From Sinosporangium siamense (lineage in GTDB: Bacteria; Actinomycetota; Actinomycetes; Streptosporangiales; Streptosporangiaceae), in contig NZ_BOOW01000012.1 in NCBI RefSeq assembly GCF_016863435.1, positions 186,001 to 250,000 on the forward strand: a stretch of DNA of 64,000 bases, read 5' to 3'. The position numbers were made by a program, and so were the translations under genes. How positions within the stretch are numbered: the stretch's first letter is position 1; each line of letters opens with the position of its first letter. The notes beneath the pieces were generated by a model. It had not been told where the DNA came from, did not search any database, and saw only the letters and a program-made list of their open reading frames with translations. Below, piece after piece: positions 3,401 through 59,587 of the stretch.

Positions 3401-3990
3401 CCGGCATGCAACCGGGCACCGTACGCACCGGCAAACTGACGGTGAGCTCGGCCAGCGGCAGAAAACCGGAATTCGACGTGAACGTGCGGGTAGTGGCCCC
3501 CACCACCCACGCCGCCGTCGACACCGGCGGCACCCGGGAGTTCGTCGACCGCCTCGGCGAACGCTGGTCGGCGGACAAGGCATATGTCGCGGGAGGTGAG
3601 GGCTATCTCGGCAGCGGCACCCGGGTACACACCTCCACCGCTCCCATTGCCGGCACCGCAGAACAGGAACTGTTCAAACAAGCCCGCGAACGCATGCTTG
3701 AATACCGCTTCGACAATGTGCCGAACGGCGTCTACACCGTGGAACTCGGCTTCGCCGACACCCGCGCGAGCCGCCCCGGCCAACGCGTCTTCGACGTCAC
3801 CGTGGAAGGCCAACCGGCCGTCTCCGCCCTCGACCTGGCCACGTCAGCCGGCCCCCGCACTGCCGTCACCCGGCAACACACGGTGACGGTGGTCGACGGC
3901 CAGCTCAACGTGCAGTTCGGCAAACGGGTGGGGGACACGATCGTGAACACCGTGCGTGTGTGGAAGTGGCCCACGGGGGTCACACCGTAG
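478..3990 (+). CDS. Secreted subtilisin-like serine peptidase (S8) with C-terminal malectin domain; complete catalytic residues
   Basis: This 1170-residue protein starts at a GTG preceded by AAGGAGACCAC, the same Shine-Dalgarno context used by its paralogues. Residues 1-31 form a signal peptide ending near SPAASA. Residues about 40-145 resemble an I9-type inhibitory propeptide. The S8 domain (about 155-475) has Asp185 in NIDTGV, His232 in GHGTHTMGT, oxyanion Asn334 in SGGN and Ser405 in SGTSMSAPH, so it should be active. Downstream are two carboxypeptidase-regulatory-like beta domains (about 478-640), a beta-sandwich region with PFPFPYYGNTYT (about 660-820), a third regulatory-like repeat (about 825-900), a BACON-like domain (about 910-1000) and a malectin domain to the end. 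There is no membrane anchor or sortase motif, so release outside the cell is likely. Protease substrate is unknown. Confidence 0.93.
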   Translation: MSDSRRRSLLIGVVATLALLAPPGISPAASAPDKIHQDVRKDLAADDKAAFWVRMKATADLSAVKSTATKTEKTQQVYRAKSQTAETSQAALRELLKRAGADFTPYWIANVVRVTGGAKLADSIVKLPEVERIEPVRDIPMPKPRPAEKTAKVNAVEWNLGNINAPQVWAEAKNRGENIVVANIDTGVEFDHPAVAAQYRGRKGDGRVDHNYNWFNPFRDCTSGKPCDDTGHGTHTMGTMVGDDGTGNTIGVAPGAKWIAARACYNDWCYSEQLLAAGQWMLAPTDRSGANPRPDLAPDIVNNSWGGTRIDPFYKQVTEAWTAAGIFSVFSGGNIDVIGCNSAFSPGADLSSYSAGASNVRNGIASFSARGTGEAGDIKPNITAPGVSVRSSVTGGGYASYSGTSMSAPHVSATVALMWSASPALRGDVAATRALLDRTAIDVDDTSCGGTAADNNVWGEGRLDAYAAVRAVPYQQLGTVTGKVTSGSEPVAGVEVQILGPLNRTVSTTREGTFTLPRLPVGNYRLTTNKFGYGIANAAFTVTADQTTTKDVTLTALPTSVVTGTVTSQGAPAEGATVTAVGTPVSAVTDSAGRYRLTLPRGAHEVRFAAWHRCVDTVTASIEVNRDLIRDTDLPQRVDRFGYTCTVGNEPHVEGVDRVWIFMDDEREQVELPFPFPYYGNTYTRATVGGRGGLNFKGFLPSGLWGLPSWAGSDLIAPYFGNGGVDPHYSSVYTAALGTAPNRTFVIEWREFQRGNRPFGRVSFSVLLHENGTIGFRYRGIRTEADSGVSAIIGISDSDGVQAFEYSNNQSSLRGDQSLTFTPSRHGVATGVITDANDGKPVVGATVKIDGTPTFTTGADGGFRGLVPIGNHRVEVSKEHYGTIIRDITVTQGTLSRVDNALPTGDLVPSADTVTLVMPAGTEHTSRFRLTNRGTGATDYTIATDPTQPWLTVTPGTSTLPPGATGTVTVTASSSGMQPGTVRTGKLTVSSASGRKPEFDVNVRVVAPTTHAAVDTGGTREFVDRLGERWSADKAYVAGGEGYLGSGTRVHTSTAPIAGTAEQELFKQARERMLEYRFDNVPNGVYTVELGFADTRASRPGQRVFDVTVEGQPAVSALDLATSAGPRTAVTRQHTVTVVDGQLNVQFGKRVGDTIVNTVRVWKWPTGVTP

Positions 3991-16527: not shown

Positions 16528-17547
16528 TCAGCGCTCCAGAACCGGCAACGACCCCGGTAGCGGGTTCAACGCCTGGGCTGGCCCGGAGTCCATGCAGACC
16601 ACGGTGAACCTCACCACCGCCCCATACAGCTCAGGCAGCACCACACCCGGACCGATCGACAGGGCCATCCCCGCCGCGAGCGGCGTGTCGTCGCCGGGCA
16701 CGAGCCACGGCGCCTCCTCGGGCGAAAGGCCGACCCCGTGCCCCGCACCCGCGGTCGCGTAGTCGCCGAACCCGCTCCCCTCGATGGCCTCCCGGGCCGC
16801 CAGGTCCACCTCGGCCGCCATCGCCCCCGGCCGGACCGCCTCGCAGGCCGCCGCCGACGCCGCGATCACGACGGAGTGCATCGCCTCGTAGTCCTCGGGC
16901 GGCTCGGCGACGGCCACCACGCGGCTCGGCGAGGCGACGTAGCCCTCCCAGCGCCCGCAAACCCCGACGAGTACCGCATCGCCGGGATTGATCACCCGAT
17001 CGGTGGGCGCCCGGTCCGGGCAGGACGTGTGCTCGCCGGACGCGACCCGCACCCCCAGCACCTCCTCGCACCCGGCCTCCGCCAGAAGCATCCGCAGCGT
17101 GCGCGCCATCCGCCGCTCCGACACCCCGAACCACGGCAGCTCCAGCGCCGCGTCCAGCACCGCGTCCGCCGCGAGCGCGGCCCGCTCCAGCGCCGCGAGC
17201 TCGGGTGGCCGTTTCCGCATCCGCATCGGGGCGAGTACGGCGGAAGCCAGCACAAGGTCACCCTCCAGCCCAAGCGCGAGCAGCTCCGACGCCCGCATCT
17301 CCGGGTCGATGCCCACCCGCCGCGCCGCCCCCAGCAACCCGGCCACCGGCTCCGGCCCGTCCACCTCCACCGGCGGCCCGGAGGCGGGCACCACGAGGAA
17401 CCCATCCCATCGGCCACCCAGATAGCGGAAGTCGGGTGACGGCCGCAGCACCAGCGCGTCGATGCCGGAGGCGGCCATGCGGCCCTGGAGCTCCACCCAG
17501 CAGGCTTCCGCCGTACCGGTCTCCGGCAGCTTCCGGAAGTCGTCCAT
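16528..17547 (-). CDS. M24-fold (creatinase/aminopeptidase P-like) protein lacking metal ligands
   Basis: This 339-residue protein has the two-domain pattern of M24 proteins: a creatinase-type N-terminal domain (MAASGIDALVLRPSPDFRYLGGRWDGFLVV) and a pita-bread C-terminal domain. The family binds two metals through Asp-Asp-His-Glu-Glu. Here the first Asp is Gly195 (VLVGVCG), the second is Ser206 (VASPSR), His270 is kept (GAGHGVGL), the first Glu is Gly299 (SIGPG) and the last is Phe314 (VRFTVV). It therefore should not be a metallopeptidase. It could be a metal-free hydrolase like creatinase or a binding protein. The gene follows the second ATPase of the peptide transporter by 3 bp and is the last gene of that operon. 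Confidence 0.85.
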   Translation of the reverse strand: MDDFRKLPETGTAEACWVELQGRMAASGIDALVLRPSPDFRYLGGRWDGFLVVPASGPPVEVDGPEPVAGLLGAARRVGIDPEMRASELLALGLEGDLVLASAVLAPMRMRKRPPELAALERAALAADAVLDAALELPWFGVSERRMARTLRMLLAEAGCEEVLGVRVASGEHTSCPDRAPTDRVINPGDAVLVGVCGRWEGYVASPSRVVAVAEPPEDYEAMHSVVIAASAAACEAVRPGAMAAEVDLAAREAIEGSGFGDYATAGAGHGVGLSPEEAPWLVPGDDTPLAAGMALSIGPGVVLPELYGAVVRFTVVCMDSGPAQALNPLPGSLPVLER

Positions 17548-17550
17548 CGC

Positions 17551-18465
17551 TCAGGCCGGTTCGTGGAGCCAGCAGGCGACGGGCGTGAAGTCAGGCTCCT
17601 TGGCGCGGCACACGTCCATCGCCACCGGGCACCGCGGGTGGAACCTACATCCACCGGGCGGGTCCGCCGGATCGGGGACGTCCCCGGCGAGTTCGGCGGG
17701 CAGGTGGCCCGCGCCGTCGGCGGCGGGGATCGCCCCGAGAAGCGCCTTCGTGTACGGATGACGGGGGTTGGCCCACACCTCAGCGGTCGGCCCGGTTTCC
17801 ACGATCTTGCCGAGATACATGACCGCGATGCGGTCGGCGATGATCCGCACCACCGACAGGTCGTGGCTGATGAACAGCAACCCCGCGCCGGACGACACGG
17901 CCAGTTCGCGCATGAGGGTGGCGACCTTGGCCTGGGCGGAGGCGTCGAGCGCGGAGATCGGCTCGTCGCCGATGAGCAGGGCCGGCCGGGCCGCGAGCGC
18001 CCGCGCGATGGCGATGCGCTGCCGCTGCCCGCCGGAGAACTCGTGCGGATGGCGGCCCTCGAAGCCGCGCGGCAGCCCGACGCGTTCCAGCAGGTCGGCG
18101 GGGGTGGTCGTGGTGTCGCCCGCGACGGCGAGGCCGTCGGCGATCTGCGCGCCGATCTTGCGCCGCGGGTTCAGCGACGAATAGGGGTCCTGGAACACCA
18201 TCTGGATGCCGAGCAGCGACCGGTGCCTGCGGCGCAGCCCGAGCGGGCGCACCGGGCCGCCTTGGAAGGTGATGTTTCCCGAGGTGGCGGGCACCAGCCC
18301 GCACACGGCGCGGGCCAGGGTCGACTTGCCGCACCCCGACTCGCCGACGAGTCCCACGACCTCGCCGGAGGAGACGGTGAGCCCGGCCCCGGCGACGGCG
18401 CGCACGGCGGGCCGCCCGGGGGTGCGGTGCTCGACGACCAGGTCGTCCACGGTGAGCAGGGTCAT
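17551..18465 (-). CDS. Peptide ABC transporter ATP-binding protein (OppF/DppF type)
   Basis: The 304-residue ATPase powers import through the two permeases encoded upstream. It shows Walker A GESGCGKSTL, the signature SGGQRQRIAIARAL, Walker B ALLIGDEPISALD, and the His-switch LLFISHDLSVV. It ends with the oligopeptide-type C-terminal extension HPYTKALLGAIP...GGCRFHPRCPVAMDVC, which in this family can carry a metal cluster at the Cys residues. The ATG overlaps by 4 bp the stop of a 22-codon ORF that separates it from the other ATPase gene. Substrate is probably di- or oligopeptides given the family and neighbours. Confidence 0.92.
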   Translation of the reverse strand: MTLLTVDDLVVEHRTPGRPAVRAVAGAGLTVSSGEVVGLVGESGCGKSTLARAVCGLVPATSGNITFQGGPVRPLGLRRRHRSLLGIQMVFQDPYSSLNPRRKIGAQIADGLAVAGDTTTTPADLLERVGLPRGFEGRHPHEFSGGQRQRIAIARALAARPALLIGDEPISALDASAQAKVATLMRELAVSSGAGLLFISHDLSVVRIIADRIAVMYLGKIVETGPTAEVWANPRHPYTKALLGAIPAADGAGHLPAELAGDVPDPADPPGGCRFHPRCPVAMDVCRAKEPDFTPVACWLHEPA

Positions 18466-18530
18466 GCGGTCTCCCCTGGCAGTGCGTCGAGCGCTGCCGG
18501 GACGGGGGCCGGCTTGGGCGGGCGGGTCAT
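18462..18530 (-). CDS. 22-codon ORF between the two ATPase genes, duplicated junction
   Basis: The ORF begins [11 protein letters not shown] and ends [10 protein letters not shown]. Its ATG overlaps the stop of the upstream ATPase (ATGA) and its own stop overlaps the ATG of the next ATPase (ATGA). Its last ten residues repeat the last residues of the upstream ATPase (LDALPGETA) and the DNA around both junctions (GCATGACC) is duplicated. It arose by a short tandem duplication of the junction and probably serves only to keep translational coupling, if it is translated at all. Confidence 0.5.
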   Translation of the reverse strand: MTRPPKPAPVPAALDALPGETA

Positions 18531-19297
18531 GCGGTCTCCCCGGGCAGTGCGTCGAGCAGGGAACGGGTGTAGGCGTGCGACGGGGTGCGCAGCACCCGCT
18601 CGCGCGGCCCGGTCTCCACGACCAGGCCGTCCTTCATTACGCTGACCTCGTCGGCGACCGCCGACATGACGCCGAGATCGTGGGTGACGAGGAGTACGGC
18701 GAGGCCGAGATCGTCGCAGAGGCTTCGCAGCAGCCGCAGGACGCCGGCCTGCACGGTGACGTCGAGCGCGGTCGTGGGTTCGTCGGCGATCAGCACCTTG
18801 GGCGAGCAGGCCAGCGCGACCGCGATCGCGATGCGCTGCCGCATGCCGCCGGAGAACTGGTGCGGATAGCGCTTGAGCGCCGCCTCCGCGCCGGGGATGC
18901 GCACTTTGCCGAGCAGTTCGAAGGCCTTGGCCCTCGCCGTGGCCTTGTCGAGGCGAAGGTGGTGGCGCATGTGCTCGGTGAGCTGGCGGCCTACCGTCAA
19001 CATGGGGTGCAGGCTGGTGGCGGGGTCCTGGAAGACCATGGCCACCTCCTTGCCGCGCACCTGGTTGAGCTCGCGGACGGGCATGGTGAGCAGGTCGCGC
19101 CCGGCCAGATCGACGCGGCCGGACGTGGTGGCGCCGTGCGGCAGCAGCCCGAGGGTGGCGAGGCCGGTCATGGTCTTGCCGGAGCCGCTCTCGCCCGCGA
19201 GCCCGTGCACCTTGCCGGGCTGGAGCGCCAGGTCGACGCCGCGCAGGATCTTGGCGCCGCCGATGGACACCTGGAGGTTCGAGATGGTCAGGGTCAC
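18527..19297 (-). CDS. Peptide ABC transporter ATP-binding protein (OppD/DppD type)
   Basis: I use the GTG at 19295-19297, which overlaps the permease stop (GTGA) and gives 256 residues starting with [20 protein letters not shown]. The frame is open further upstream but there it only shadows the permease gene. Motifs are Walker [12 protein letters not shown], the Q loop MVFQDP, signature [15 protein letters not shown], Walker [14 protein letters not shown] and switch [10 protein letters not shown]. The C-terminus ([17 protein letters not shown]) is shorter than usual and lacks the Cys-rich extension found in the partner ATPase. It would form a heterodimer with the OppF-type protein encoded next. 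Confidence 0.9.
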
Positions 19298-20157
19298 AAC
19301 GCACGCACCTTGATCGCCCTGGCGGTGCGCGGGTCGAGCGCGTCGCGCAGGGTGTCGCCGAGGAAGTTGAACGCGAGCACCACCGTCAGGATGGCGAGAC
19401 CGGGGAAGGTCGCGACCCACCAGCTGTCGAACACCTCGACGCCGGAGGAGACCATCGCGCCCCACTCGGGGGAGGGTGGCTTGGCGCCGAGGCCGAGGAA
19501 GGACAGTCCGGACAACAGCAGCAGTGCCGTACCGATGTCGAGGGTGGCGAGCACCAGGATGGGGCCGGTGACGTTGGGCAGCACGTCGAGCCGGAGCGAC
19601 CGCCAGGCGGAGAAGCCGAGCAGCCGCCCGCTGAGCACGAACTCGCGTTCGCGCATGCCCATGACCAGGCCGCGGGTGACGCGGGCGTAGGACGGCCACG
19701 CGACGACGAGCACCGCGAGCACGGCGTTGGTGAGGCTGGCGCCGAGGGCGGCGGCGACGACCATGGCGAGGATGACGGTCGGGAAGGCGAACACAAGGTC
19801 GGCGAACCGCATCACCGTCTCATCCACCCACCTACCGAAATAGCCGGCGCAGGCGCCGAGCAGGCCGCCGATCAGCACCGACAACACCACCAGCAGCAAC
19901 GTCAGCGGGATCGACACCCGGGCGCCGTAAAGCACCCGGCTGAAGATGTCGCGCCCGAGCTGGTCGGTGCCGAACCAGTGGTCCGGGCCGGGCGGTGCGA
20001 GCCGCGGCAGCTCTTGCGCCAGCGGGTCGTACGGCGCGAGCAGCGGAGCCGCCACCGCGACGATCAGCCAGGTGAGCGCGATCACCCCGCCGACGACCGC
20101 CAGGGGACGCCGCCACGCCTCGGGCAGGCGGCGGCGCCTGCGGGAAAGGCGGCTCAC
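19294..20157 (-). CDS. Peptide ABC transporter permease (OppC/DppC type)
   Basis: This 287-residue inner-membrane permease starts at a GTG overlapping the stop of the first permease gene (GTGA). It has an N-terminal helix (PLAVVGGVIALTWLIVAVAAPLLAPYDP), the family motif HWFGTDQLGRDIFSRVLYGARVSIPLTLL, several more hydrophobic helices and the cytoplasmic EAA loop region RVTRGLVMGMREREFVLSGRLLGFS that contacts the ATPases. It ends with LAFNFLGDTLRDALDPRT, typical of the family. It pairs with the OppB-type permease. Confidence 0.92.
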   Translation of the reverse strand: MSRLSRRRRRLPEAWRRPLAVVGGVIALTWLIVAVAAPLLAPYDPLAQELPRLAPPGPDHWFGTDQLGRDIFSRVLYGARVSIPLTLLLVVLSVLIGGLLGACAGYFGRWVDETVMRFADLVFAFPTVILAMVVAAALGASLTNAVLAVLVVAWPSYARVTRGLVMGMREREFVLSGRLLGFSAWRSLRLDVLPNVTGPILVLATLDIGTALLLLSGLSFLGLGAKPPSPEWGAMVSSGVEVFDSWWVATFPGLAILTVVLAFNFLGDTLRDALDPRTARAIKVRAL

Positions 20158-21254
20158 GACAGCCTCACTCTCGGGTCGATCACGCCGTACAACACGTCGA
20201 CGATCAGATTGATGACCAGGTAGACGGCCCCCACGACCAAGCCGACGCCCATGACGGCGGGCAAGTCGAGCGCGGTGGCGCTCTTGTAGGCGTATTGCCC
20301 GATGCCGGGCCAGGCGAAGATCGCCTCCACGAGCACCGTGCCGGACAGCAGGCTGCCGAACGCGAGACCGGCCACCGTGATGATCGGCACCAGCGCGGAG
20401 CGCAGCACATAGCGGAACAGGATCGTACGGCCGGGCAGCCCCTTGGCCCGCGCCGCCCGCACGTAGTCCTGCCCCAGCACCTCAAGCACCGCCGACCGGG
20501 TGAACCGCGTGAGCAGGCCGATCGTGTAAAGCGCCAGCACGAGCGCGGGCAGAGCCAGGTGGCCGGCGGCCGAGGCGAACACGTCCCACTGCCCGGCGAG
20601 CACCGCGTCCACCGTGTGCAGGCCGGTGACCTTTGGCGGCGGCGTCATGCCCGGGTCGAGCCTGCCGCTGCCCGGGGCGATCTGCAGCCGGAAGAAGAAG
20701 ATGTAGAACGCCACCAGCGCCAGCCAGAAGGTCGGCACCGAGATGCCGATGAGGCTGGTGACGCGGAGCACCTGGTCGGCGAGGCGGTCGCGGCGGAGCG
20801 CGGCGATCACACCGAACGCCACACCGAGGATCAGCGACACGACGATCGCCGCCCCCGCGAGCTCGATGGTGGCCGGCACGAACTCCGCGAGGTCCTCGGC
20901 GACCGGCCGGTGGCTCTGCTGGCTCGTGCCGAGATCGCCTTGGAGCACCCCCGACAGGTGGAGCAGATATTGCTTGGGCAGCGGCTCGTCCAGCCCGTGT
21001 TCGGCCCGCCACTGCGCCACCAGCGCCGGGTCGCCGAGCGCCCGCTGGCCCAGGTTGGCCGTCGCGGGGTCGCCCGGCACGAGGTTGGTCAGCACGAACG
21101 TGACCAGCGTGATGCCCACGGCCAGCAGCAGCGCGGTGGCCACGCGGCGGACCAGGAACCTCGTCAGCGGATGGCGGTGCACACCCGGGCGGGCGGCACG
21201 GCGACCAGCCGTGCCGCCCGCCGGGGCCTTACCTGGCGCCGAGGTCGGCGACAT
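20154..21254 (-). CDS. Peptide ABC transporter permease (OppB/DppB type)
   Basis: The 366-residue permease begins inside the end of the binding-protein gene (26-bp overlap). After a basic N-terminus it has RFLVRRVATALLLAVGITLVTFVLTNLVPGDPA, the classical start of this family, then GLDEPLPKQYLLHLSGVLQGDLGTS. Later come periplasmic and membrane segments, the EAA loop YVRAARAKGLPGRTILFRYVLRSALVPIIT, and the terminal GVIDPRVRLS. Together with the next gene it forms the transmembrane channel. The usual length is about 310-340 residues; the extra ones are an unusual basic N-terminal extension. Confidence 0.92.
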   Translation of the reverse strand: MSPTSAPGKAPAGGTAGRRAARPGVHRHPLTRFLVRRVATALLLAVGITLVTFVLTNLVPGDPATANLGQRALGDPALVAQWRAEHGLDEPLPKQYLLHLSGVLQGDLGTSQQSHRPVAEDLAEFVPATIELAGAAIVVSLILGVAFGVIAALRRDRLADQVLRVTSLIGISVPTFWLALVAFYIFFFRLQIAPGSGRLDPGMTPPPKVTGLHTVDAVLAGQWDVFASAAGHLALPALVLALYTIGLLTRFTRSAVLEVLGQDYVRAARAKGLPGRTILFRYVLRSALVPIITVAGLAFGSLLSGTVLVEAIFAWPGIGQYAYKSATALDLPAVMGVGLVVGAVYLVINLIVDVLYGVIDPRVRLS

Positions 21255-22845
21255 CGACGGTCCACACCGGGTGGTACTCCAGCCCGGTGACGGAGGCCGC
21301 CGTCACGATGTTCTGGGTGGGCTGGATGAGCGGGATGAACGGGCTCTGCGCGTTCAGCTTCGTCTGCAGGTCGGCGTAGGCGGTCTTGCGCTTGTCGTCG
21401 CCGACGATGGCGGCGACGCGCTCGCCCTCGGCCTCAAGGGCCGTGTCCGCGCCCTCGGCCCAGCCGGCGCGCAGGCCGACGAGCTTGCCGGGGAGGAAGA
21501 CCAGGTAGTCGCTGGGGTCCGGATAGTCGGGACCCCAGTACCACAGGCCCATCTCCTCCTTGCCGTTGCGATAGTTGTCGAGCGCCGTCGTCACCGGGGC
21601 CGGGGTCAGGTCGACGGTGATGCCGACCTCCTTCAGGTTCGCCTGGATACGCTCGGCGAGCGGCTGGAAAGACAGGCCGTTCACGGTCAGCTCGCTCGGA
21701 TACTCCAGCTTGACCGTCGGGTTGGTCAGGCCGCTCTCCTTGAGCGCCGCCTTCGCGCCCTCGACGTCGCGTGTGGCGCCGGCGTCGGGCGGCAGCGCGC
21801 CGAGCATCATCGACGGGATCACGCCGGGCGCCTGCACGGAGCCCTCGCCCGCCAGCTCAAGCAGGCCCTTGTAGTCCACGCCCTTGCGCACGGCTTCCAC
21901 GAACTTGGGGTTCGAGGTGATCTTGCTGATCTTCGGGTTCTGGCTGTTGAGCAGGAAGATCATGTTGGCCGACGGGGTCTTCTTGACCTGGAGCGTCGCC
22001 GGCATGTTCGCGACCTGGTCCCCCGACAGGTTCAGCGCCACGTGGCTGTCGCCGCGCTGCACGTTCAGCCGCTGCGTGGCCGCCTCGACGTTGCGGAGCA
22101 CCACCTTGTCATAGACCGGCTTGTTCTGACCCCAGTAGTTCGTGTTCTTCTTCAGCACGACCTGGCCGGTCAGGTTGAACGACTCGATCATGTACGGTCC
22201 AGAGCCCGCCGAGGCCGAGTTCAGATACTTCTCGGCCTTGTCCGAAGCGTCGGCGGTTGCGCCGTTGGCCTTGGCGACCTTGGAATTGAGGATGCCGAGC
22301 CCCGGGTTCGGCAGGATGTACGGCAGAGCCGGGTTGGGCTTCGCCGAGGTCAGCGTGACCGTGTCCGCGCCGGGGGAGGCCACCTCGACCCCGTCGAGCA
22401 GGAACGACGGGCTGCCCTTCATGTCCCGCACCCGGTTGAGGGAGAACACCACGTCCTCGGCGGTCACGGGGGAGCCGTCGGAGAACGTCGCGCCCGGGCG
22501 CAGCTTCAGCGTGACGGTCTTGCCGTCGCCGGACAGTTCGTAGGACTCGGCCAGGGCGGGCACCGGCTTGGTCACATCGGCGCCGTCGAACGTGAGAAGT
22601 GTCTCGTATGTCGCCTTGCCGATGATCAGGCCGGTGGGCTCGTAGGTGCGCCCGGGGTCTGCCGTCTTGAGATCGAACGACGTGTCGATCACGAGGGTCT
22701 TGGCCCCGGAGCCCGCCCCCGCGCCGCCGCTCGCGGGCGCCGTGGAGGAGCCGCCGCCTGAGCAGGCGGCGAGGGCGAGCGCGCCGGTGAGCATGACCGG
22801 CAGAAGCGCCGCCTTCGTTGCCAGGCGCCGCGAACGGGTCGCCAT
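21229..22845 (-). CDS. Lipoprotein substrate-binding protein of the peptide ABC transporter (SBP family 5)
   Basis: This 538-residue protein has a lipoprotein signal peptide with the lipobox LALAACSGGG (lipidated Cys28). The mature part follows the SBP family 5 pattern: FDLKTADPGRTYEPTGLIIGKATYETLL near the start, LRPGATFSDGSPVTAEDVVFSLNRV, KYLNSASAGSGPYMIESFN, VRKGVDYKGLLELAGEG and a WGPDYPDPSDYLVFL segment typical of dipeptide/oligopeptide binders. It captures peptides outside the membrane and delivers them to the permeases encoded downstream. The ATG follows a GGAGG site. It is the first gene of the operon and is transcribed divergently from an Lrp-type regulator gene, which probably controls it. 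Confidence 0.92.
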   Translation of the reverse strand: MATRSRRLATKAALLPVMLTGALALAACSGGGSSTAPASGGAGAGSGAKTLVIDTSFDLKTADPGRTYEPTGLIIGKATYETLLTFDGADVTKPVPALAESYELSGDGKTVTLKLRPGATFSDGSPVTAEDVVFSLNRVRDMKGSPSFLLDGVEVASPGADTVTLTSAKPNPALPYILPNPGLGILNSKVAKANGATADASDKAEKYLNSASAGSGPYMIESFNLTGQVVLKKNTNYWGQNKPVYDKVVLRNVEAATQRLNVQRGDSHVALNLSGDQVANMPATLQVKKTPSANMIFLLNSQNPKISKITSNPKFVEAVRKGVDYKGLLELAGEGSVQAPGVIPSMMLGALPPDAGATRDVEGAKAALKESGLTNPTVKLEYPSELTVNGLSFQPLAERIQANLKEVGITVDLTPAPVTTALDNYRNGKEEMGLWYWGPDYPDPSDYLVFLPGKLVGLRAGWAEGADTALEAEGERVAAIVGDDKRKTAYADLQTKLNAQSPFIPLIQPTQNIVTAASVTGLEYHPVWTVDVADLGAR

Positions 22846-22948: not shown

Positions 22949-22966
22949 GTCATGGAGAGGTGTCAG

Positions 22967-23602
22967 ATGGGTGAAATGTCGCGAACGGATCCGCCGGGGG
23001 CCGGTAGATCTGGACGGATCGGCATCGGGCTCCAGCTCGACGCCACACACCTCAAGATCCTTGAGGTCCTGCGCGAACACGGCCGCATCTCCGTCGCCGA
23101 ACTGGCCGAACGCGTCGGCATCTCCCGCGCCAACGCCTACACCCGCTTCGAGGCCCTCCGCGCCGACGGCGTGATCAAACGCTTCACCCTGGAGGTCGAC
23201 CACGTCCGGGCCGGGCTCGGCATCACCGCCCTGATCTTCGTGACCGTCCGGCAGCAGATGTGGAAGCAGTTCCGCGCCCAGCTCGCCCAAATGCCCGAGG
23301 TCGAGTACTGCGCCATCACCACCGGCCAGCACGACGCCATGATCCAGGTGAGAATGTCCGACGTCGCCGCCGTACACGCCATGGTGACCGATCGCCTCGC
23401 CAACATCCCTGCCGTCAAGGCCACCGAGACCGTCTTCATCCTGGACGAAGTGCTCCACCGCCCTTACGTCCTCCCCAGCGACCAGCCGGCCCGCACGGCC
23501 ACCACCCCCCGCCCGGAACCCCGCCGCCGCGAACCGGTCCCGTTGGGCAAGATGCGCTTCGTCGGCGCCGCCGAGGGCCGCGCGACCCTCCAGCGGGACT
23601 GA
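22967..23602 (+). CDS. Lrp/AsnC-family transcriptional regulator
   Basis: I choose the ATG at 22967, six bases after GAGAGG, giving 211 residues; an ATG at 22952 would add five residues without a ribosome site. The protein has the AsnC helix-turn-helix (LDATHLKILEVLREHGRISVAELAERVGISRANAYTRFEALRADGVI), a linker KRFTLEVDHVRAGLG, and the ligand-binding RAM domain (TALIFVTVR, VEYCAITTGQHDAMIQVRMSD, VKATETVFILDEVL). Such proteins sense amino acids. A 50-residue Pro/Arg-rich tail (ATTPRPEPRRREP) is longer than usual. It lies divergent to the peptide transporter operon, so regulation of peptide uptake by an amino acid is a fair inference. Confidence 0.9.
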   Translation: MGEMSRTDPPGAGRSGRIGIGLQLDATHLKILEVLREHGRISVAELAERVGISRANAYTRFEALRADGVIKRFTLEVDHVRAGLGITALIFVTVRQQMWKQFRAQLAQMPEVEYCAITTGQHDAMIQVRMSDVAAVHAMVTDRLANIPAVKATETVFILDEVLHRPYVLPSDQPARTATTPRPEPRRREPVPLGKMRFVGAAEGRATLQRD

Positions 23603-25589: not shown

Positions 25590-25994
25590 TCAGCGGAGTT
25601 CGTCGCAAATGCTCTCGTGCAGCTTGTCGTCGCCCGCGAAGCGGAACTCCTCCACCAGGCGCAGCCGTCCGTCGCTCAAGGGCTCGATCCGGCTCGTGCT
25701 GTGCCCGCCGCTGCGGCCCCCGGCCTTCAGCAGGTGCACGTAGTCGATCTCCAGCCGGTCGCCGGCGCGCGTGCCGACGAAGCGGCCGATGGTCACGGTG
25801 TCGCCGGTATAGGTGCCCCAGACGACGCCGTCCTGCTCCTCGTAGACGAACTCGGTCGGTGTGCGGGGGTTCACCGCGCTGGCGGTGGAACTCACCATGG
25901 CGAACCGGCGTCCGTTGAGCAGGTGCCTCTCGTTGTGGAAGGCATGAGGTACATGGGAAGTCATAATGCCCATAGTGATGATATTTCCGGACAC
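25590..25994 (-). CDS. Small lipocalin-like hypothetical protein
   Basis: The 134-residue frame opens at a GTG; ATGs at 25973 or 25964 are alternative starts and one of these is likely, since the conserved part begins near LLNGRRFAMVSST. It is a beta-rich protein: FVYEEQDGVVWGTYTGDTVTIGRFVGTR, LEIDYVHLLKAGGRSGGHSTSRIEPLSDGRLRLVEEFRF. This pattern matches the widespread ~115-residue family often mislabelled N-acetylglutamate synthase, which probably folds like a lipocalin. No catalytic motif is visible. It stands alone, between the aspartic protease unit and the DUF1275 gene, with a strong hairpin downstream. Confidence 0.7.
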   Translation of the reverse strand: MSGNIITMGIMTSHVPHAFHNERHLLNGRRFAMVSSTASAVNPRTPTEFVYEEQDGVVWGTYTGDTVTIGRFVGTRAGDRLEIDYVHLLKAGGRSGGHSTSRIEPLSDGRLRLVEEFRFAGDDKLHESICDELR

Positions 25995-54958: not shown

Positions 54959-55411
54959 TCACACAGTGCGCCGACCTGGCGTATGCCTGTGTGGACCTGC
55001 TCCGCCGAGCGCCCGTGAACTCCCCGCAGGATCGGCATCAACGATCAACACCACGGGCAGGGCCACCGGCAAGAAGGCCCGCCAGACGGCGATGGTGAGG
55101 TCGATAGCGCGGTTGCCCAGATGCGCGAGTTCGTGGAGGACCACCGCCCGGAATCCCGCCGGGTCCGTGGAGAAGGTGCGCACCAGACCGGCGTCGAGTC
55201 GCACGGAACGGCGTCCGGCGCGGCCGAACGCCACGCCGCTCATCGCCTGCCGGGCGCTCAGCAAGAACTGCGGAGCCCGCTTCAAGTCAGCGTGCCGTAC
55301 CAGGTTGTGGAGTTCGGCGGCGAGTTCCGGGGCGTCGCTTTCGGGGGGGCGGGGTGAGTTTGAACCTCCGGCGATGCCACACCGGCTGCTAATAGCTTGA
55401 TCGAAAATCAT
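54959..55411 (-). pseudogene. Fragment of an M48-like metallopeptidase gene
   Basis: The 150-codon frame contains RRSVRLDAGLVRTFSTDPAGFRAVVLHELAHLGNRAIDLTIAVWRAFLPVALPVVLI. The HELAH motif plus the following membrane-like helix fits M48-type (HtpX/Ste24-like) zinc peptidases. The third zinc ligand and the rest of the catalytic domain are missing, because the frame turns into unrelated Gly/Arg-rich sequence after LPVVLIVDADPAG. No good ribosome site precedes the ATG. It is probably a gene remnant between the S8 array and the racemase operon. An active short protein is unlikely. Confidence 0.6.
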
Positions 55412-55426
55412 AGGCCGTGCATACGG

Positions 55427-55464
55427 CGGCCCCCGGACATGGTGGTGGTCAAGTCCGGGGGCCG
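55427..55464 (-). terminator. Strong 12-bp hairpin after the racemase operon
   Basis: CGGCCCCCGGAC at 55427-55438 pairs perfectly with GTCCGGGGGCCG at 55453-55464. It begins 17 bp beyond the stop of the OSBS/NSAR gene and ends that operon. Confidence 0.75.
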
Positions 55465-55480
55465 ATAGGGGAGGGGTCCG

Positions 55481-56587
55481 TCAGGCGGGGATCCACTCCG
55501 TCCATGAGGTGATCTCGGACAGAACCTCCGGAAGGGGTTCCACGCCGAGGCCGGGGCCGGTGGGCACGGTCAGGTGGCCGTCGTCCAGGACGAAGGGCTC
55601 GGTGACGTCCTGGGCGTAGTAGCGGCTCGACCCCGACGTGTCGCCCGGGAGGGTGAAGCCGGGCAGGGCGGCCAGGGCGACGTTGGCGGCGCGGCCGATG
55701 CCGGTCTCCAGCATGCCGCCGCACCACACCGCGATGCCGTGCGCCGACGCCAGGTCGTGGATCTTGCGGGCCTCGATGTAGCCGCCGATCCGGCCGGGCT
55801 TGATGTTGATGATCGAGCAGGAGCCGAGCGTGATCGCGGCGGCGGCGTGCTCGACCGACTCGATCGACTCGTCCAGGCACACCGGCGTGTTGATCCGCTT
55901 GGAGAGGGCGGCGTGCTGCACCAGGTCGTCGTTGGCGAGCGGCTGCTCGATGAGCAGCAGCCCGAACTCGTCGAGCTTGGCCAGGTGGGGGGCGTCGACG
56001 AGCGTGTAGGCGGCGTTGGCGTCCGCCTGCAGCAGGATGCCGTCGCCGAAACGCTCACGTACGGCGCGCACCGGCTCGATGTCCCAGCCCGGCTCGATCT
56101 TCAGCTTGATGCGGACATATCCCTCGGACAGGTAGCCGTCGACCGCGTCAAGCAACTCGGGGATCGAGTTCATGATCCCGACGGACACGCCGCACGGCAC
56201 CCGCTCGGCGGTCGCGCCGAGGAACCGCCCGAACGACTCGCCCGACGCGCGCAACTGGGCGTCGAGCACGGCCGTCTCCAGCGCCGTCTTCGCCATCCGG
56301 TGGCCCTTGAACTTCGCCAGCGCGTGGGCCACGCCGTACCCGTCGATGCCCGGCCGCGACGTGAGCGCCGGGATGAGGAAGCGCCGCATCACATCGACGG
56401 ACGCGTCGACGTATTCCGACGAGTAGAGCGGCGACGACATCGCCACACACTCGCCCCAGCCCTCCGCCTCAGGGGTGACGACCCGCACGAGCAGCACGTC
56501 ACGCTCGTGCTCGACACCGAACGAGGTGCGGAACGGCGCGACCAGCGGCAGATCGATCCTGCGCAGCTCGATACCAGAGATCTTCAT
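55481..56587 (-). CDS. Enolase-superfamily N-succinyl/N-acylamino acid racemase (OSBS/NSAR family)
   Basis: The ATG at 56585-56587 gives 368 residues (the longer upstream frame is a shadow of the acyltransferase gene). The catalytic residues are complete: KxK motif Lys161/Lys163 (RIKLKIEPG), metal ligands Asp189 (LQADANAAY), Glu214 (LIEQPL) and Asp239 (CLDESI), and Lys263 (INIKPGRIGG). These numbers coincide with those of the Amycolatopsis N-acylamino acid racemase/OSBS. The family either makes o-succinylbenzoate for menaquinone or racemises N-acyl amino acids. Here no men genes are near, but a GNAT acyltransferase and an M20 hydrolase lie directly upstream, as in the known D- to L-amino acid pathway of Geobacillus. 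I therefore favour N-succinylamino acid racemase. Confidence 0.9.
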   Translation of the reverse strand: MKISGIELRRIDLPLVAPFRTSFGVEHERDVLLVRVVTPEAEGWGECVAMSSPLYSSEYVDASVDVMRRFLIPALTSRPGIDGYGVAHALAKFKGHRMAKTALETAVLDAQLRASGESFGRFLGATAERVPCGVSVGIMNSIPELLDAVDGYLSEGYVRIKLKIEPGWDIEPVRAVRERFGDGILLQADANAAYTLVDAPHLAKLDEFGLLLIEQPLANDDLVQHAALSKRINTPVCLDESIESVEHAAAAITLGSCSIINIKPGRIGGYIEARKIHDLASAHGIAVWCGGMLETGIGRAANVALAALPGFTLPGDTSGSSRYYAQDVTEPFVLDDGHLTVPTGPGLGVEPLPEVLSEITSWTEWIPA

Positions 56588-56622
56588 AAACCACCTACGG
56601 CGGAAACCCGCCGTGTCTCCTT

Positions 56623-57453
56623 TCAACCGTTCCTGTCGACGATGTAGCCACCGCCGCGGGTAAACCCGATCACTTTCGCGCCCGCCGCCATCAGATCGCC
56701 GAGCACGTCGCGCACCGCGCAGCGCCACGCCGTGGCGGCGCCCGGGTCTGTACGGCGGAGCGTCTCGATGTCCTCCGGCACCGCCACCAGGATCGTCCTG
56801 CCGTCGGTGCGCCCGAACACGGGCCGGCCTTCCTTGTTCTCCAACCCGGCGACCGCGTCGGCCGGCACGAGGGGGCGGTGGGGACTGCCGTCCGCGGCCC
56901 GCACCACGTGCGGCTCGTTGAGGCGCCACACGGCGAGCACACGGTCGGACTCGTCACCGGCGTTGATCGAGTCCTCCATCGCCCCGTAGAACCTGGGCAG
57001 GTATTCCTCCGGACGGGCGCCCAGCTTGACCAGGTTGAAGTAGATGTTGCGGCTCACCAGCGGGTCGAAGGTCCACGTGATGCGTTCGAGTCCGCGCTCC
57101 AACGCCCACGCCCGCTGGTGCAACTTCAACGCGAAGCCTATGCCCCGGCCGATCGTCGCACCCGTGATGTGCGAGTGCAGCGACACCCCGGGCGGCGCGG
57201 CGAGGAACCCCACGGAGCCGCCGACCAGCTCGTCCCCCTCATAGGCCCCGGACACATAGTTGCCCGCGTGCGACATCGCACGCATCAGCTCCGTCGTGAT
57301 CGGCGGACTGGTCGGGTCGGGCCGCCAAATGCGGTCGAACAGCTCGAAGACCGACTCGAACTCCTCAATCTCATGCAACTGCCGTACGGTAACCCCGGCC
57401 CGAGCGGCCGCCGCGTCGGCCGCCGCACTCGCGGCGGGCAGCGGCCCGCTCAC
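56623..57453 (-). CDS. GNAT-family N-acyltransferase, probable D-amino acid N-succinyltransferase
   Basis: I use the GTG at 57451-57453, which overlaps the M20 stop (GTGA), giving 276 residues; the longer upstream frame is shadow. The GNAT pattern is seen in YVSGAYEGDELVGGSVGFLAAPPG, HSHITGATIGRGIGFALKLHQRAWALERGLERITWTFDPLVSRNIYFNLVKLGARPEEY, where the RGIGFAL segment fits the acyl-CoA pyrophosphate loop. The PLVSRNIYFNLVKLGA and FYGAMEDSIN features match the group of GNAT proteins found beside OSBS/NSAR genes. In that pathway the enzyme succinylates D-amino acids. Specificity here is inferred from neighbours. It lies between the hydrolase and the racemase gene, 35 bp upstream of the latter. 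Confidence 0.85.
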   Translation of the reverse strand: MSGPLPAASAAADAAAARAGVTVRQLHEIEEFESVFELFDRIWRPDPTSPPITTELMRAMSHAGNYVSGAYEGDELVGGSVGFLAAPPGVSLHSHITGATIGRGIGFALKLHQRAWALERGLERITWTFDPLVSRNIYFNLVKLGARPEEYLPRFYGAMEDSINAGDESDRVLAVWRLNEPHVVRAADGSPHRPLVPADAVAGLENKEGRPVFGRTDGRTILVAVPEDIETLRRTDPGAATAWRCAVRDVLGDLMAAGAKVIGFTRGGGYIVDRNG

Positions 57454-58553
57454 GGGTTCACCCCGTCGAGGACGTCGGCGACCAGGCGTGACAGCAGTGC
57501 TGTACGGCCCGGCATCTCCGAGGTGATCACATGCTCGTGGTCGGCGTGGGCGCCGCCGCCCACCGCGCCGAGCCCGTCGAGCGTGGGGCACCCCACGCCC
57601 GCCGTGTAGTTGCCGTCCGAGGCGCCGCCGACCGCCACGCCGCTCAAGGCGGGCTGGCCGAGATCGGCCGCGGCGCGTTGCGCCAGCTCGAACAGCGCCG
57701 CCGAGGACGACGCCTCCATCGGCGGCCGGTTCGGGCCGCCGAGCAGCTCCAGCCGCGCGCCCGGGATCCGGGCGGTCAGGGCGTTCATCAGTTCGTGCAC
57801 CCGCTCCTGCGCCTCGACGGTCGGCACACGCACGTCCACCTGCACGCTCGCCCGCGCCGGAACCGTGTTGGTGCTCGTCCCCGCGGCCGACAGGGTCGGC
57901 GTCACCGTGGTCAGGCCCGCGTCCACCTGGGCCGCGATCTCGTTGACGGCAAGGATCTGGTGGGCGAGTTCGACCGCCGCGTTGACGCCCTTGGCGGGTT
58001 CCAGGCCGGCGTGGGCGGCTTTGCCGTACACCACCAGTTCATAGTGCGACACGCCCTTGCGGGCGGTCTTCAGCGCCCCGCCGTCCGCGCTCGCCTCCAG
58101 CACGAACGCCGCCGACAGGCCTCGCGCCGACTCCTCGATCAGCTTCTGCGACGTGGGGGAGCCGAGCTCCTCATCGCCGGTCACCAGCACACTGACACCG
58201 TCCAGGGACGGCAAAGCCCGCAAAGCATGGAAGATCTGGACCAGCCCGGCCTTCATATCGAACACCCCCGGCCCCCGCGCGGTGCCGTTCACGACGGACC
58301 AGGGAAGGGCTGAAAGGGTGCCGATGGGCCACACGGTGTCGTGATGCCCGAGCAGCAGCACTCGCGGCGAGCCGAAGGTCCAGCGCAAATGCGTCACCCC
58401 GTCGACGACGAGGAACTCCGGAGCCGCCCCCAGCATCCGCTCTCCCTGAGCGGCCACCACCCCCGCGCTGCGGGCCACAGCCGCGTGATCGCTGGAGAAG
58501 GACTCGCAGACCACCAGTTCCTCGAGGTCGGCGAGCATCGCGTCGAGATTCAC
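57450..58553 (-). CDS. M20-family metallohydrolase, probable N-succinyl-L-amino acid desuccinylase
   Basis: The GTG overlaps the dipeptidase stop (GTGA) and gives 367 residues. M20 (carboxypeptidase G2-like) motifs are complete: the first metal ligand LLLGHHDTVWP, bridging Asp in GPGVFDMKAG, catalytic Glu pair in VTGDEELGSPTS, Asp/Glu ligand VLEASADGG, the dimerisation-domain His GKAAHAGLEPAKG, and the last His in GGGAHADHEHV. The family hydrolyses amide bonds of N-acyl amino acids and peptides. Next to a GNAT and an NSAR gene, the best reading is release of the L-amino acid from its N-succinyl form. A plain carboxypeptidase role cannot be excluded. Confidence 0.9.
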   Translation of the reverse strand: MNLDAMLADLEELVVCESFSSDHAAVARSAGVVAAQGERMLGAAPEFLVVDGVTHLRWTFGSPRVLLLGHHDTVWPIGTLSALPWSVVNGTARGPGVFDMKAGLVQIFHALRALPSLDGVSVLVTGDEELGSPTSQKLIEESARGLSAAFVLEASADGGALKTARKGVSHYELVVYGKAAHAGLEPAKGVNAAVELAHQILAVNEIAAQVDAGLTTVTPTLSAAGTSTNTVPARASVQVDVRVPTVEAQERVHELMNALTARIPGARLELLGGPNRPPMEASSSAALFELAQRAAADLGQPALSGVAVGGASDGNYTAGVGCPTLDGLGAVGGGAHADHEHVITSEMPGRTALLSRLVADVLDGVNP

Positions 58554-59587
58554 GCGGACCGCCCGAGTTCCTGCCGGAACAGGCGGCGCACGTTGCCTCC
58601 GACGATCTTCACGATGTCGTCCTCGGCGAAGCCCCGCTTGATGAGCCCCTCGGTGACCAGCGGCATGCCGCGTGGCCCCTCAAGACCCGCGATGCACGCG
58701 TCGGTGTCGAGGTTGTCGAGCCCGATCGGCTCGCAGCAGGGCGGCGTGAGCTCCTCCAGGATCTCCTTCACGAAGTCCGAACCGAGCCCTACGTGGTCGA
58801 TGCCCGCGACGTTCGCGATGTGCTCGATGTGGTCGACCAGGTGATCGACCGTCACATCCTTCGGCTTCTCCGTCAGGAAGGCCGCCACGAAGTTCACACA
58901 CACCACACCACCCGTCGCCGCCACCCCCCGGAGCTGCTCGTCGGTCAGGTTGCGGTGGTGATCGAGCAGAGCACGCGCCGACGAGTGCGTCGCGAGCAGC
59001 GGACGCGTCGACAGCTCGAAGACGTGCTCCACCCCGGATGCACCCAGATGGGAGATGTCGAAGATGATGCCCAGACGTTGCATCTCCTTCAGCGCCTCGA
59101 CGCCGTGCGTGGTCAGCCGGCTGCCGGTGGCGTCCTCACAGCTGCCGTCGGCCAGCGGCGTCCTGCCGAAGTGCGCGATCGAGGCGACCCGCACCCCAAG
59201 CCGGAACAACGTCGAAATCAGTTCGATGTTCGCGTCGAGCCCAGGAGCGCTCTCCAACGCCAGAACGAGAGCGATCTTCCCGTCCGCCAGCGCCTCGTCT
59301 ATATCGGCGCCGTCCATGCAGAGCTTCACCTCGTCGGCGTTGCCCTCCGCCAGGATGTGCGCGGCCTCGATCATGCGCAGGGTCTCGCGGAGAGCACCCT
59401 CCGGGCGGTATTGGTCGTCGATGAAGACCGGCAACACCTGAAGGTCCACTCCGCCGTCGCGGAGTTGAGGCAACCACTGCTCACGGAAGAACGACGCCCA
59501 CCGTTTGGGCGGGCGCGCCGTCACCGCCATCAGCAGGTCGTTGTGTGTATCTGCGACGACCGCGCGGCGGTGCAGGTCGGTGAACAC
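58550..59587 (-). CDS. Membrane dipeptidase-type peptidase (M19, renal dipeptidase family)
   Basis: I use the GTG at 59585-59587, nine bases after AAGGAG, giving 345 residues; an ATG at 59626 is possible but has no ribosome site. The M19 metal site is complete: ADTHNDLL near the start, Glu in VLALESAPG, His in FDISHLG, and His in LLATHSSARALLDHHRNLTD; Asp in VGLGSDF completes the active site. Bacterial M19 enzymes cut dipeptides and often accept a D-residue at the C-terminal side. No signal peptide is present, so it acts in the cytoplasm. It is the first gene of the operon and would supply D-amino acids from peptides to the following pathway. Confidence 0.9.
   Translation of the reverse strand: MFTDLHRRAVVADTHNDLLMAVTARPPKRWASFFREQWLPQLRDGGVDLQVLPVFIDDQYRPEGALRETLRMIEAAHILAEGNADEVKLCMDGADIDEALADGKIALVLALESAPGLDANIELISTLFRLGVRVASIAHFGRTPLADGSCEDATGSRLTTHGVEALKEMQRLGIIFDISHLGASGVEHVFELSTRPLLATHSSARALLDHHRNLTDEQLRGVAATGGVVCVNFVAAFLTEKPKDVTVDHLVDHIEHIANVAGIDHVGLGSDFVKEILEELTPPCCEPIGLDNLDTDACIAGLEGPRGMPLVTEGLIKRGFAEDDIVKIVGGNVRRLFRQELGRSA

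Follow-up and report, generated by a model that had tools for sequence, protein, structure and literature searches.

The conversion of D-amino acids to their L-forms by N-succinylation in Geobacillus kaustophilus depends on three enzymes: a succinyl-CoA:D-amino acid succinyltransferase, an N-succinylamino acid racemase (NSAR) and an L-desuccinylase. Enzymes of the NSAR/OSBS type (OSBS, o-succinylbenzoate synthase) perform two reactions with one active site, and it has long been asked which of the two counts in vivo. The Amycolatopsis enzyme is reported as an OSBS in vivo, with other members doing both reactions (PMC4215206); kinetic rows are given for GkNSAR/OSBS and AmyNSAR (PMC8142540) and the G. 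kaustophilus NSAR and L-succinylase are in use as a pair (PMC7431475). For Pontibacter roseus, it has been proposed from a single genome that a missing menC is filled by a gene of the MLE subgroup (PMC4511580). NSAR/OSBS bifunctionality and the use of NSAR with L-succinylase are, then, already known, and an MLE-filled menC gap has one earlier proposal behind it.

Here we describe a four-gene operon from a 64,000-nucleotide stretch of Sinosporangium siamense DNA (contig NZ_BOOW01000012.1, positions 186,001–250,000, forward strand; hereafter ‘the window’, from whose first letter positions are counted), in which genes for an M19 dipeptidase, an M20 metallohydrolase and a GNAT acyltransferase precede one for an NSAR/OSBS racemase. 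On balance we favour a reading in which the operon serves to convert D-amino acids from imported peptides to L-forms, with the racemase also making o-succinylbenzoate (OSB) for menaquinone. The Geobacillus pathway, likened here by enzyme type only, has the genes for its three enzyme types grouped together, as the window does; the window operon differs in the M19 gene added in front, its ties to peptide import and a shortened GNAT loop. Pontibacter roseus resembles our case in having the classical menaquinone pathway but no recognised menC, the step being filled by another gene of the enolase superfamily; there, however, the gene is muconate-cycloisomerase-like, whereas here the pattern recurs in many genomes and involves an NSAR/OSBS encoded in an operon. 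The open-licence literature, covered in part and including PMC4139412 and PMC5808125, yielded neither an M19-linked NSAR operon nor a displacement of menC in Streptosporangiaceae, and relative to it the M19 front gene and the proposed takeover of the menC step by a racemase from an operon are, tentatively, new.

The operon and its racemase

All four genes lie on the minus strand, in the order and at the coordinates given by an earlier, sequence-only reading of this DNA:

59587–58550, minus strand: M19 dipeptidase, first gene of the operon; 345 amino acids, GTG start with AAGGAG upstream
58553–57450, minus strand: M20 metallohydrolase, carboxypeptidase-G2-like; putative N-acyl-L-amino acid hydrolase
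57453–56623, minus strand: GNAT acyltransferase, 276 amino acids; putative D-amino acid N-acyltransferase
56587–55481, minus strand: NSAR/OSBS, 368 amino acids
55464–55427, minus strand: stem-loop directly 3′ of the NSAR stop; possible terminator without a U-tract

That reading also had the genes joined by GTGA overlaps. This holds for the M19/M20 and M20/GNAT junctions, each a 4-nt overlap, but not for GNAT and NSAR, which are separated by a 35-nt gap; overlap at all three junctions is accordingly rejected. The stem-loop 3′ of NSAR is strong for its composition (RNA fold of 55420–55490, −33.2 kcal/mol; z −4.5, with 0/200 shuffles as low). A simple terminator scan of the operon region gave no enrichment (3 found versus 1.7 expected), a hairpin between GNAT and NSAR was no stronger than its shuffles (z −0.21), and a sigma-70-type promoter scan returned no match.

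By profile and residue evidence the window racemase is placed in the NSAR/OSBS group of the OSBS family: it scores 317.3 bits with TIGR01928 (cut-off 200.65) and 178.4 bits with Pfam MR_MLE_C, its closest solved proteins are NSAR/OSBS enzymes, and 248/366 residues are identical, in a gapless alignment, to those of the Amycolatopsis protein 1sja. The catalytic residues named in the sequence-only reading—K161 and K163 of the KxK motif, the metal ligands D189, E214 and D239, and the second catalytic lysine K263—are found at exactly those numbers, together with R266 and Y323. Position R266, which we take to be tied to racemase activity, is invariant across the 70 distinct NSAR rows we compared; entry 7s8w has Q in its place. 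The Amycolatopsis enzymes (1sja, 4a6g) have the catalytic residues and R266 in common with the window protein, for which Y323 is native where an engineered Amycolatopsis variant carries F323Y (PMC7431475). The genomes differ, in that those of Amycolatopsis which were tested keep a dedicated MenC (3/3; G140, G142 and G144) and none was found in the window genome.

Conservation of the gene set among relatives

We surveyed 121 genomes of the order, with kinship between genomes uncorrected. GNAT is present in 53, every one of which (53/53) also carries NSAR/OSBS above cut-off. Seventy-three of the 76 GNAT matches, the window's among them, were read in context (G092:C1, G100:C33 and G112:C12 being left out); same-strand neighbours within 4.5 kb of GNAT comprised NSAR at 50 of these loci, M20 at 35 and M19 at 32, with all four genes together at 11. 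Overlaps of 4 nt recur amongst relatives, the window being counted with them (22/26 for M19/M20, 21/35 for M20/GNAT and 24/47 for GNAT/NSAR; same-strand pairs within 600 nt, starts picked by a custom script). An M19 ortholog accompanies GNAT in 42/53 genomes, against 3/68 of those without it (Fisher p ~1e-18, kinship uncorrected). The coupling of M19 to D-to-L conversion genes put forward in the sequence-only reading is hence supported by conserved linkage and co-occurrence, as is its N-acyl conversion operon; what it overlooked was a probable second role, that of MenC.

Beyond the order survey, we opened named loci, the best 80 of at least 590, which therefore lean to close relatives. NSAR is adjacent in 62 of these 80, M20 in 53 and M19 in 24, and they span Streptosporangiaceae, Streptomyces, Amycolatopsis, Lentzea, Kribbella and others. 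In the nearest named genome, that of Sinosporangium album (L147), the four proteins are 90% (M19), 84% (M20), 71% (GNAT) and 91% (NSAR) identical to those of the window. Plasmids from Priestia, Sulfitobacter, Arthrobacter and Deinococcus (two read for the last) likewise carry GNAT–menC pairs; the Priestia GNAT adjoining menC is 30.5% identical, and the Sulfitobacter pair is accompanied by an amino acid ABC importer. The plasmid of Arthrobacter sp. ERGS1:01 (L231, NZ_CP012477.1) carries two S12-type hydrolases, M19, M20, GNAT and an NSAR labelled menC; it may be a salvage set for D-peptides, with the menC label misnaming an NSAR. Automatic menC labels on such genes are sometimes right and sometimes wrong.

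The menaquinone step

The window genome has menD (429.8 bits, contig C59). The dedicated actinobacterial MenC (PRK02901), which would supply the same step as the window NSAR/OSBS, was not found there, the best score being 86.9 bits versus 288; no MenC was seen by eye in 18 kb near menD, and C59 holds no MLE-family match. Nor was there a match to MqnC above cut-off: the sole MqnC-like frame in the genome (892 aa) falls below it and is presumably FbiC, and a futalosine pathway is thus rejected. A contig-edge NSAR-like ORF (G000:C15 207–812; L020 3–851) was likewise discarded as a MenC candidate, since its KxK position reads T-L-D by eye and it looks non-catalytic; it scores 82.9 bits with MR_MLE_C and is possibly cut by the contig end. 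Because menD is present, no MenC was found and the NSAR/OSBS group has bifunctional members, the window racemase is probably also an OSB synthase. The sequence-only reading had suggested looking for a separate menC, on the view that OSB synthesis by this enzyme in a genome without one would count against salvage; no second menC came to light, the OSBS activity itself being predicted from sequence.

The pattern extends across the survey, in which menD is present in 119 genomes, MenC was matched in 93 (92 above cut-off) and NSAR/OSBS exceeds its cut-off in 57. All 28 genomes without MenC have both NSAR/OSBS above cut-off and menD (28/28 each), against NSAR/OSBS in 29/93 with MenC. A single NSAR/OSBS copy is present in 21 of the 28, located within 4.5 kb of GNAT in 10 of these 21, and in four (G060, G087, G104 and G120) this sole copy sits in an M19–M20–GNAT–NSAR array. 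As six of the MenC-less genomes are single-contig assemblies (G016, G050, G061, G064, G070 and G083), absence of MenC from them is no assembly gap. Three of the 28 (G061, G079 and G090) have no GNAT match; in G079, the locus L129 reads M19–M20–NSAR, the racemase being kept and the acyltransferase gone. Separately, 54/121 genomes have a TIGR01928 match solely below cut-off (E up to 1e-40; for example G011, G017 and G073), corresponding to an MLE-family enzyme in the same order.

For 24 of the 80 named genomes, picked for taxonomic spread and NSAR presence, we searched for menD, MenC and MqnC. Eight (seven Streptomyces and Yinghuangia) have MqnC with neither menD nor MenC, and all eight have M20–GNAT–NSAR; 11 have menD and MenC, with GNAT–NSAR pairs persisting in these; four have menD without MenC (Sinosporangium album, Sphaerisporangium perillae, a Sphaerisporangium MAG and Microbispora catharanthi); and in one Streptomyces neither menD, MenC nor MqnC passed the limits applied. 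The gene set thus exists without menaquinone duty in some lineages and seems to carry that duty in Streptosporangiaceae; and since eight named relatives keep M20–GNAT–NSAR with MqnC and no menD, an OSBS role leaves salvage unrefuted. Mapped on the NSAR gene tree, the MenC-absence label requires 13 changes, at least 6 of them forced by starred branches; this is no count of independent menC losses, because it is a gene tree with long-branch rows (L091, L140, L139 and L128 among them).

A second copy and two loop residues

The window genome has a second GNAT–NSAR pair, on contig C32, where it follows genes for an oligopeptide ABC importer and for a PucR regulator. The two NSARs are 61.6% identical and the two GNATs ~43%. 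NSARs of the C32 type were seen in four fetched genomes, each having another NSAR/OSBS or MenC, and their loop diverges, with E or D at position 50 and T or A at position 54. The window NSAR has L54 and S56; the C32 copy is without L54.

L54 is present in 19/20 single-copy genomes lacking MenC, in 18/28 order rows and 8/11 other-family rows with MenC, in 0/8 genomes with MqnC (all R) and in 0/4 of the C32 type (T or A). S56 follows in 19/20, 28/28 and 11/11 of the same first three groups, in 0/8 with MqnC (all C) and in 2/4 of the C32 type; since S56 is found in every MenC row, residue 56 is rejected as an indicator of menaquinone duty when MenC genomes are the comparison. (The single-copy group omits G001, hence 20/21, and the MenC group omits G012, G107, G108 and the truncated L091; L087 stands in two groups, leaving 70 distinct rows, with kinship uncorrected.) G061, a sole copy in a MenC-less genome, departs from the pattern with D54 and T56. 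Given the diverged C32 loop, the window copy is the likelier MenC of the two.

Enzymes and peptide import in the proposed route

The window M19 protein scores 285.5 bits with Pfam PF01244 (Peptidase_M19), and no signal peptide was seen by eye. Aligned to the dipeptidases 3id7 and 1itq it keeps, in the aligned part and by eye, a Glu and two His at what we take to be the metal positions of renal dipeptidase. Structure 3id7 is, we presume, Sco3058; 3id7 and 1itq share family and metal positions with the window enzyme, at only 111–136 bits. Sco3058 prefers L-D dipeptides. The M20 protein matches Peptidase_M20 (81.3 bits) and M20_dimer in Pfam, its nearest solved structure being carboxypeptidase G2 (1cg2, 114.5 bits), with the metal-site motifs kept by eye.

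The GNAT protein is sub-threshold in Pfam (19.9 versus 22) and has no match in NCBIfam. Its AlphaFold model (pLDDT 94.8) nevertheless predicts that it is of the GNAT superfamily fold over approximately residues 20–180 (best Z 15.1, rmsd 1.8–2.3, 143–146 residues aligned), with Z of 13.5–15.1 among the 50 structure matches listed. A full-length acyl-CoA loop in this superfamily reads Q/R-x-x-G-x-G/A. The window protein lacks it: its loop is 3 residues shorter than that of the C32 paralog, and shortening by 2–4 residues is seen in 53 of the 62 loci compared, the loop being full in the other 9, which include the C32 type. The short-loop clade (window, L054–L113) is otherwise well conserved.

An oligopeptide ABC importer encoded elsewhere in the window is the probable partner of the operon:

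17551–22845, minus strand: oligopeptide ABC importer (Pfam SBP_bac_5, BPD_transp_1 twice, ABC_tran with oligo_HPY)
21229–22845, minus strand: its substrate-binding protein (SBP; SBP_bac_5)
20154–21254 and 19294–20157, minus strand: its two permeases (BPD_transp_1)
about 18527–19294 and 17551–18465, minus strand: its ATPases, the first read by eye
16528–17547, minus strand: M24 peptidase, last gene after the importer (PF00557, 121 bits)
22952–23602, plus strand: Lrp/AsnC-type regulator, divergent from the importer (PF01037, 59.9 bits)

Twelve fetched loci have an SBP ortholog, 73–81% identical, close to GNAT or NSAR. In L064 and L151 the ABC, Lrp and M24 orthologs stand directly behind M19–M20–GNAT–NSAR, and in L092 the genes form a single ABC–M24–GNAT–NSAR run; the window shows the same order and orientation, with ~30 kb, including a run of S8 subtilase-like genes, intervening. 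Lrp orthologs 77–88% identical are found beside the same importer in L062, L064, L077, L151, L157, L170, L174 and L177. The best NCBIfam match of the M24 protein is an Xaa-Pro dipeptidase, far below cut-off. Clusters in other families further include hydrolases of the S9 and S12 types, as well as a PucR-type regulator. A set made up of an oligopeptide ABC importer with M24, S9 and S12 enzymes is compatible with D-containing peptides at large, and no member of it singles out peptidoglycan; the suggestion in the sequence-only reading that peptidoglycan-derived peptides are the source accordingly gained no partner gene specific to it.

With the GNAT, NSAR and M20 genes of an N-succinylation pathway standing together in the operon, a route can be sketched in which the importer, judging by its linkage, would take up peptides; M19, perhaps with M24, would by family cut dipeptides, freeing a C-terminal D-residue; GNAT would N-acylate, and probably N-succinylate, the D-amino acid; NSAR, its active site complete, would equilibrate the N-acyl-D and N-acyl-L forms; and M20 would strip the acyl group from the L-form, thereby pulling the route to L. 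Independently, as gene presence and absence across genomes indicates, the same NSAR/OSBS would replace the missing MenC. What the sequences show directly is the order of the genes, their families, their co-occurrence and their presence or absence; all substrates, the D-to-L direction, the acyl donor and the menaquinone activity are what we infer from these.

Weighing the explanations

Several points weigh against this dual role. The gene set is often incomplete: 29/73 GNAT loci have NSAR alone, without M19 and M20, and a further 14/73 have M19–M20 with GNAT and no adjacent NSAR; with M19/M20 or an adjacent NSAR missing at many GNAT loci, the quartet does not form an obligatory unit. M19 can, moreover, act alone, since G022 and G081 carry its ortholog with neither GNAT nor NSAR/OSBS above cut-off. 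In the window genome the NSAR is not beside men genes (menD on C59, operon on C12), the ABC/M24 partner is 33–39 kb from the operon, and the MLE-family gene at C15:91594, to which the 86.9 bits on the MenC model belong, is an alternative OSBS candidate. Succinyl-CoA is a putative acyl donor and the acyl-CoA loop of the GNAT is shortened, and related genomes are non-independent observations.

Nine of the 14 loci without an adjacent NSAR fall in one genus, Microbispora, one of them being decayed: L143 (G014:C45), a second and apparently decayed M19–M20–GNAT locus in its genome, ~4 kb from menD. Each of the eight Microbispora genomes with such loci has a stand-alone NSAR elsewhere, adjoining a uvrA-like gene in L114 and L127 (two listed; by eye). 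Five genomes of this genus (G009, G014, G032, G097 and G101) have the operon or the M19 ortholog 4.1–7.5 kb from menD. A possible history, towards which we are slightly more doubtful than convinced, is that in Streptosporangiaceae the racemase of a salvage operon displaced menC, leaving a catabolic operon holding the cell's only OSBS; that Microbispora-type genera later moved the racemase to a stand-alone site, with M19–M20–GNAT left behind; and that residues 54 and 56 would record its duty, sole copies in MenC-less genomes having L54/S56 and freed copies drifting, to R54/C56 with MqnC and to T or A at 54 in the C32 type.

The alternative that fares best, though we think it unlikely, is that the operon makes L- from D-amino acids only, OSB coming from the C32 NSAR or from another MLE-family enzyme. 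The second GNAT–NSAR pair at C32 lends itself to this, as do the eight named genomes in which M20–GNAT–NSAR accompanies MqnC without menD, and for Pontibacter roseus the proposed MenC is an MLE enzyme from outside the NSAR/OSBS group (PMC4511580). The C32-type NSAR, however, was in its four genomes always alongside another NSAR/OSBS or MenC, with a different loop, and it is the L54 of the window copy that recurs in 19/20 single-copy genomes lacking MenC.

Less probable again is that the racemase is simply the MenC, and M19, M20 and GNAT chance or co-regulated neighbours: for all that TIGR01928 is named o-succinylbenzoate synthase and that NSAR/OSBS is found in 28/28 MenC-less genomes, three of them without a GNAT match, its presence in 53/53 GNAT genomes, the invariance of R266 in 70 rows and the GNAT–NSAR pairs, kept both in the eight named genomes that have MqnC but not menD and in the 11 with menD and MenC, all argue against it. 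We regard as very improbable a reversal of the route, in which GNAT would acylate L-amino acids and M20 release D-amino acids for cell wall or signalling; racemases are reversible and the stereospecificity of M20 is unreadable from sequence, but the ties with peptidases and with the uptake of peptides point to catabolism, and the G. kaustophilus NSAR/L-succinylase pair is used to produce L-amino acids (PMC7431475). Finally, an L-Ala-D/L-Glu dipeptide epimerase pathway for murein peptides, with M19 as downstream dipeptidase, shares a superfamily and a nearby dipeptidase gene with our locus but is scarcely credible and is rejected, the NCBIfam epimerase models scoring far below cut-off on the window racemase (60.4 bits versus 343 and 63.8 versus 500) and its closest solved proteins being NSAR/OSBS.

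Across related species the gene set is found alongside menC, in the absence of menC, and where there is no classical menaquinone pathway; through this natural experiment, the question of which reaction matters in the cell becomes testable by menC complementation and loop-residue swaps.

Neighbouring features

Directly behind NSAR lies a fragment-like 150-aa ORF (54959–55411, minus strand) that matches zinc metalloprotease HtpX only weakly (24 bits versus 341). By eye, the window has seven S8 subtilase-like genes of ~1170–1212 aa, one at 478–3990 (plus strand) and six in tandem at 32585–54783 (minus strand); the operon and its likely ABC/Lrp/M24 partner lie on either side of the tandem run, and subtilase-like genes are also found downstream of the operon in Sinosporangium album. 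Lastly, a small conserved ORF without Pfam or NCBIfam match (25590–25994, minus strand) has tblastn matches of 52.7–69.6% in L062, L064, L077, L151, L157, L177 and L210; its place is between NSAR and Lrp at three of these loci (L064, L077 and L151), while others have it close to Lrp.

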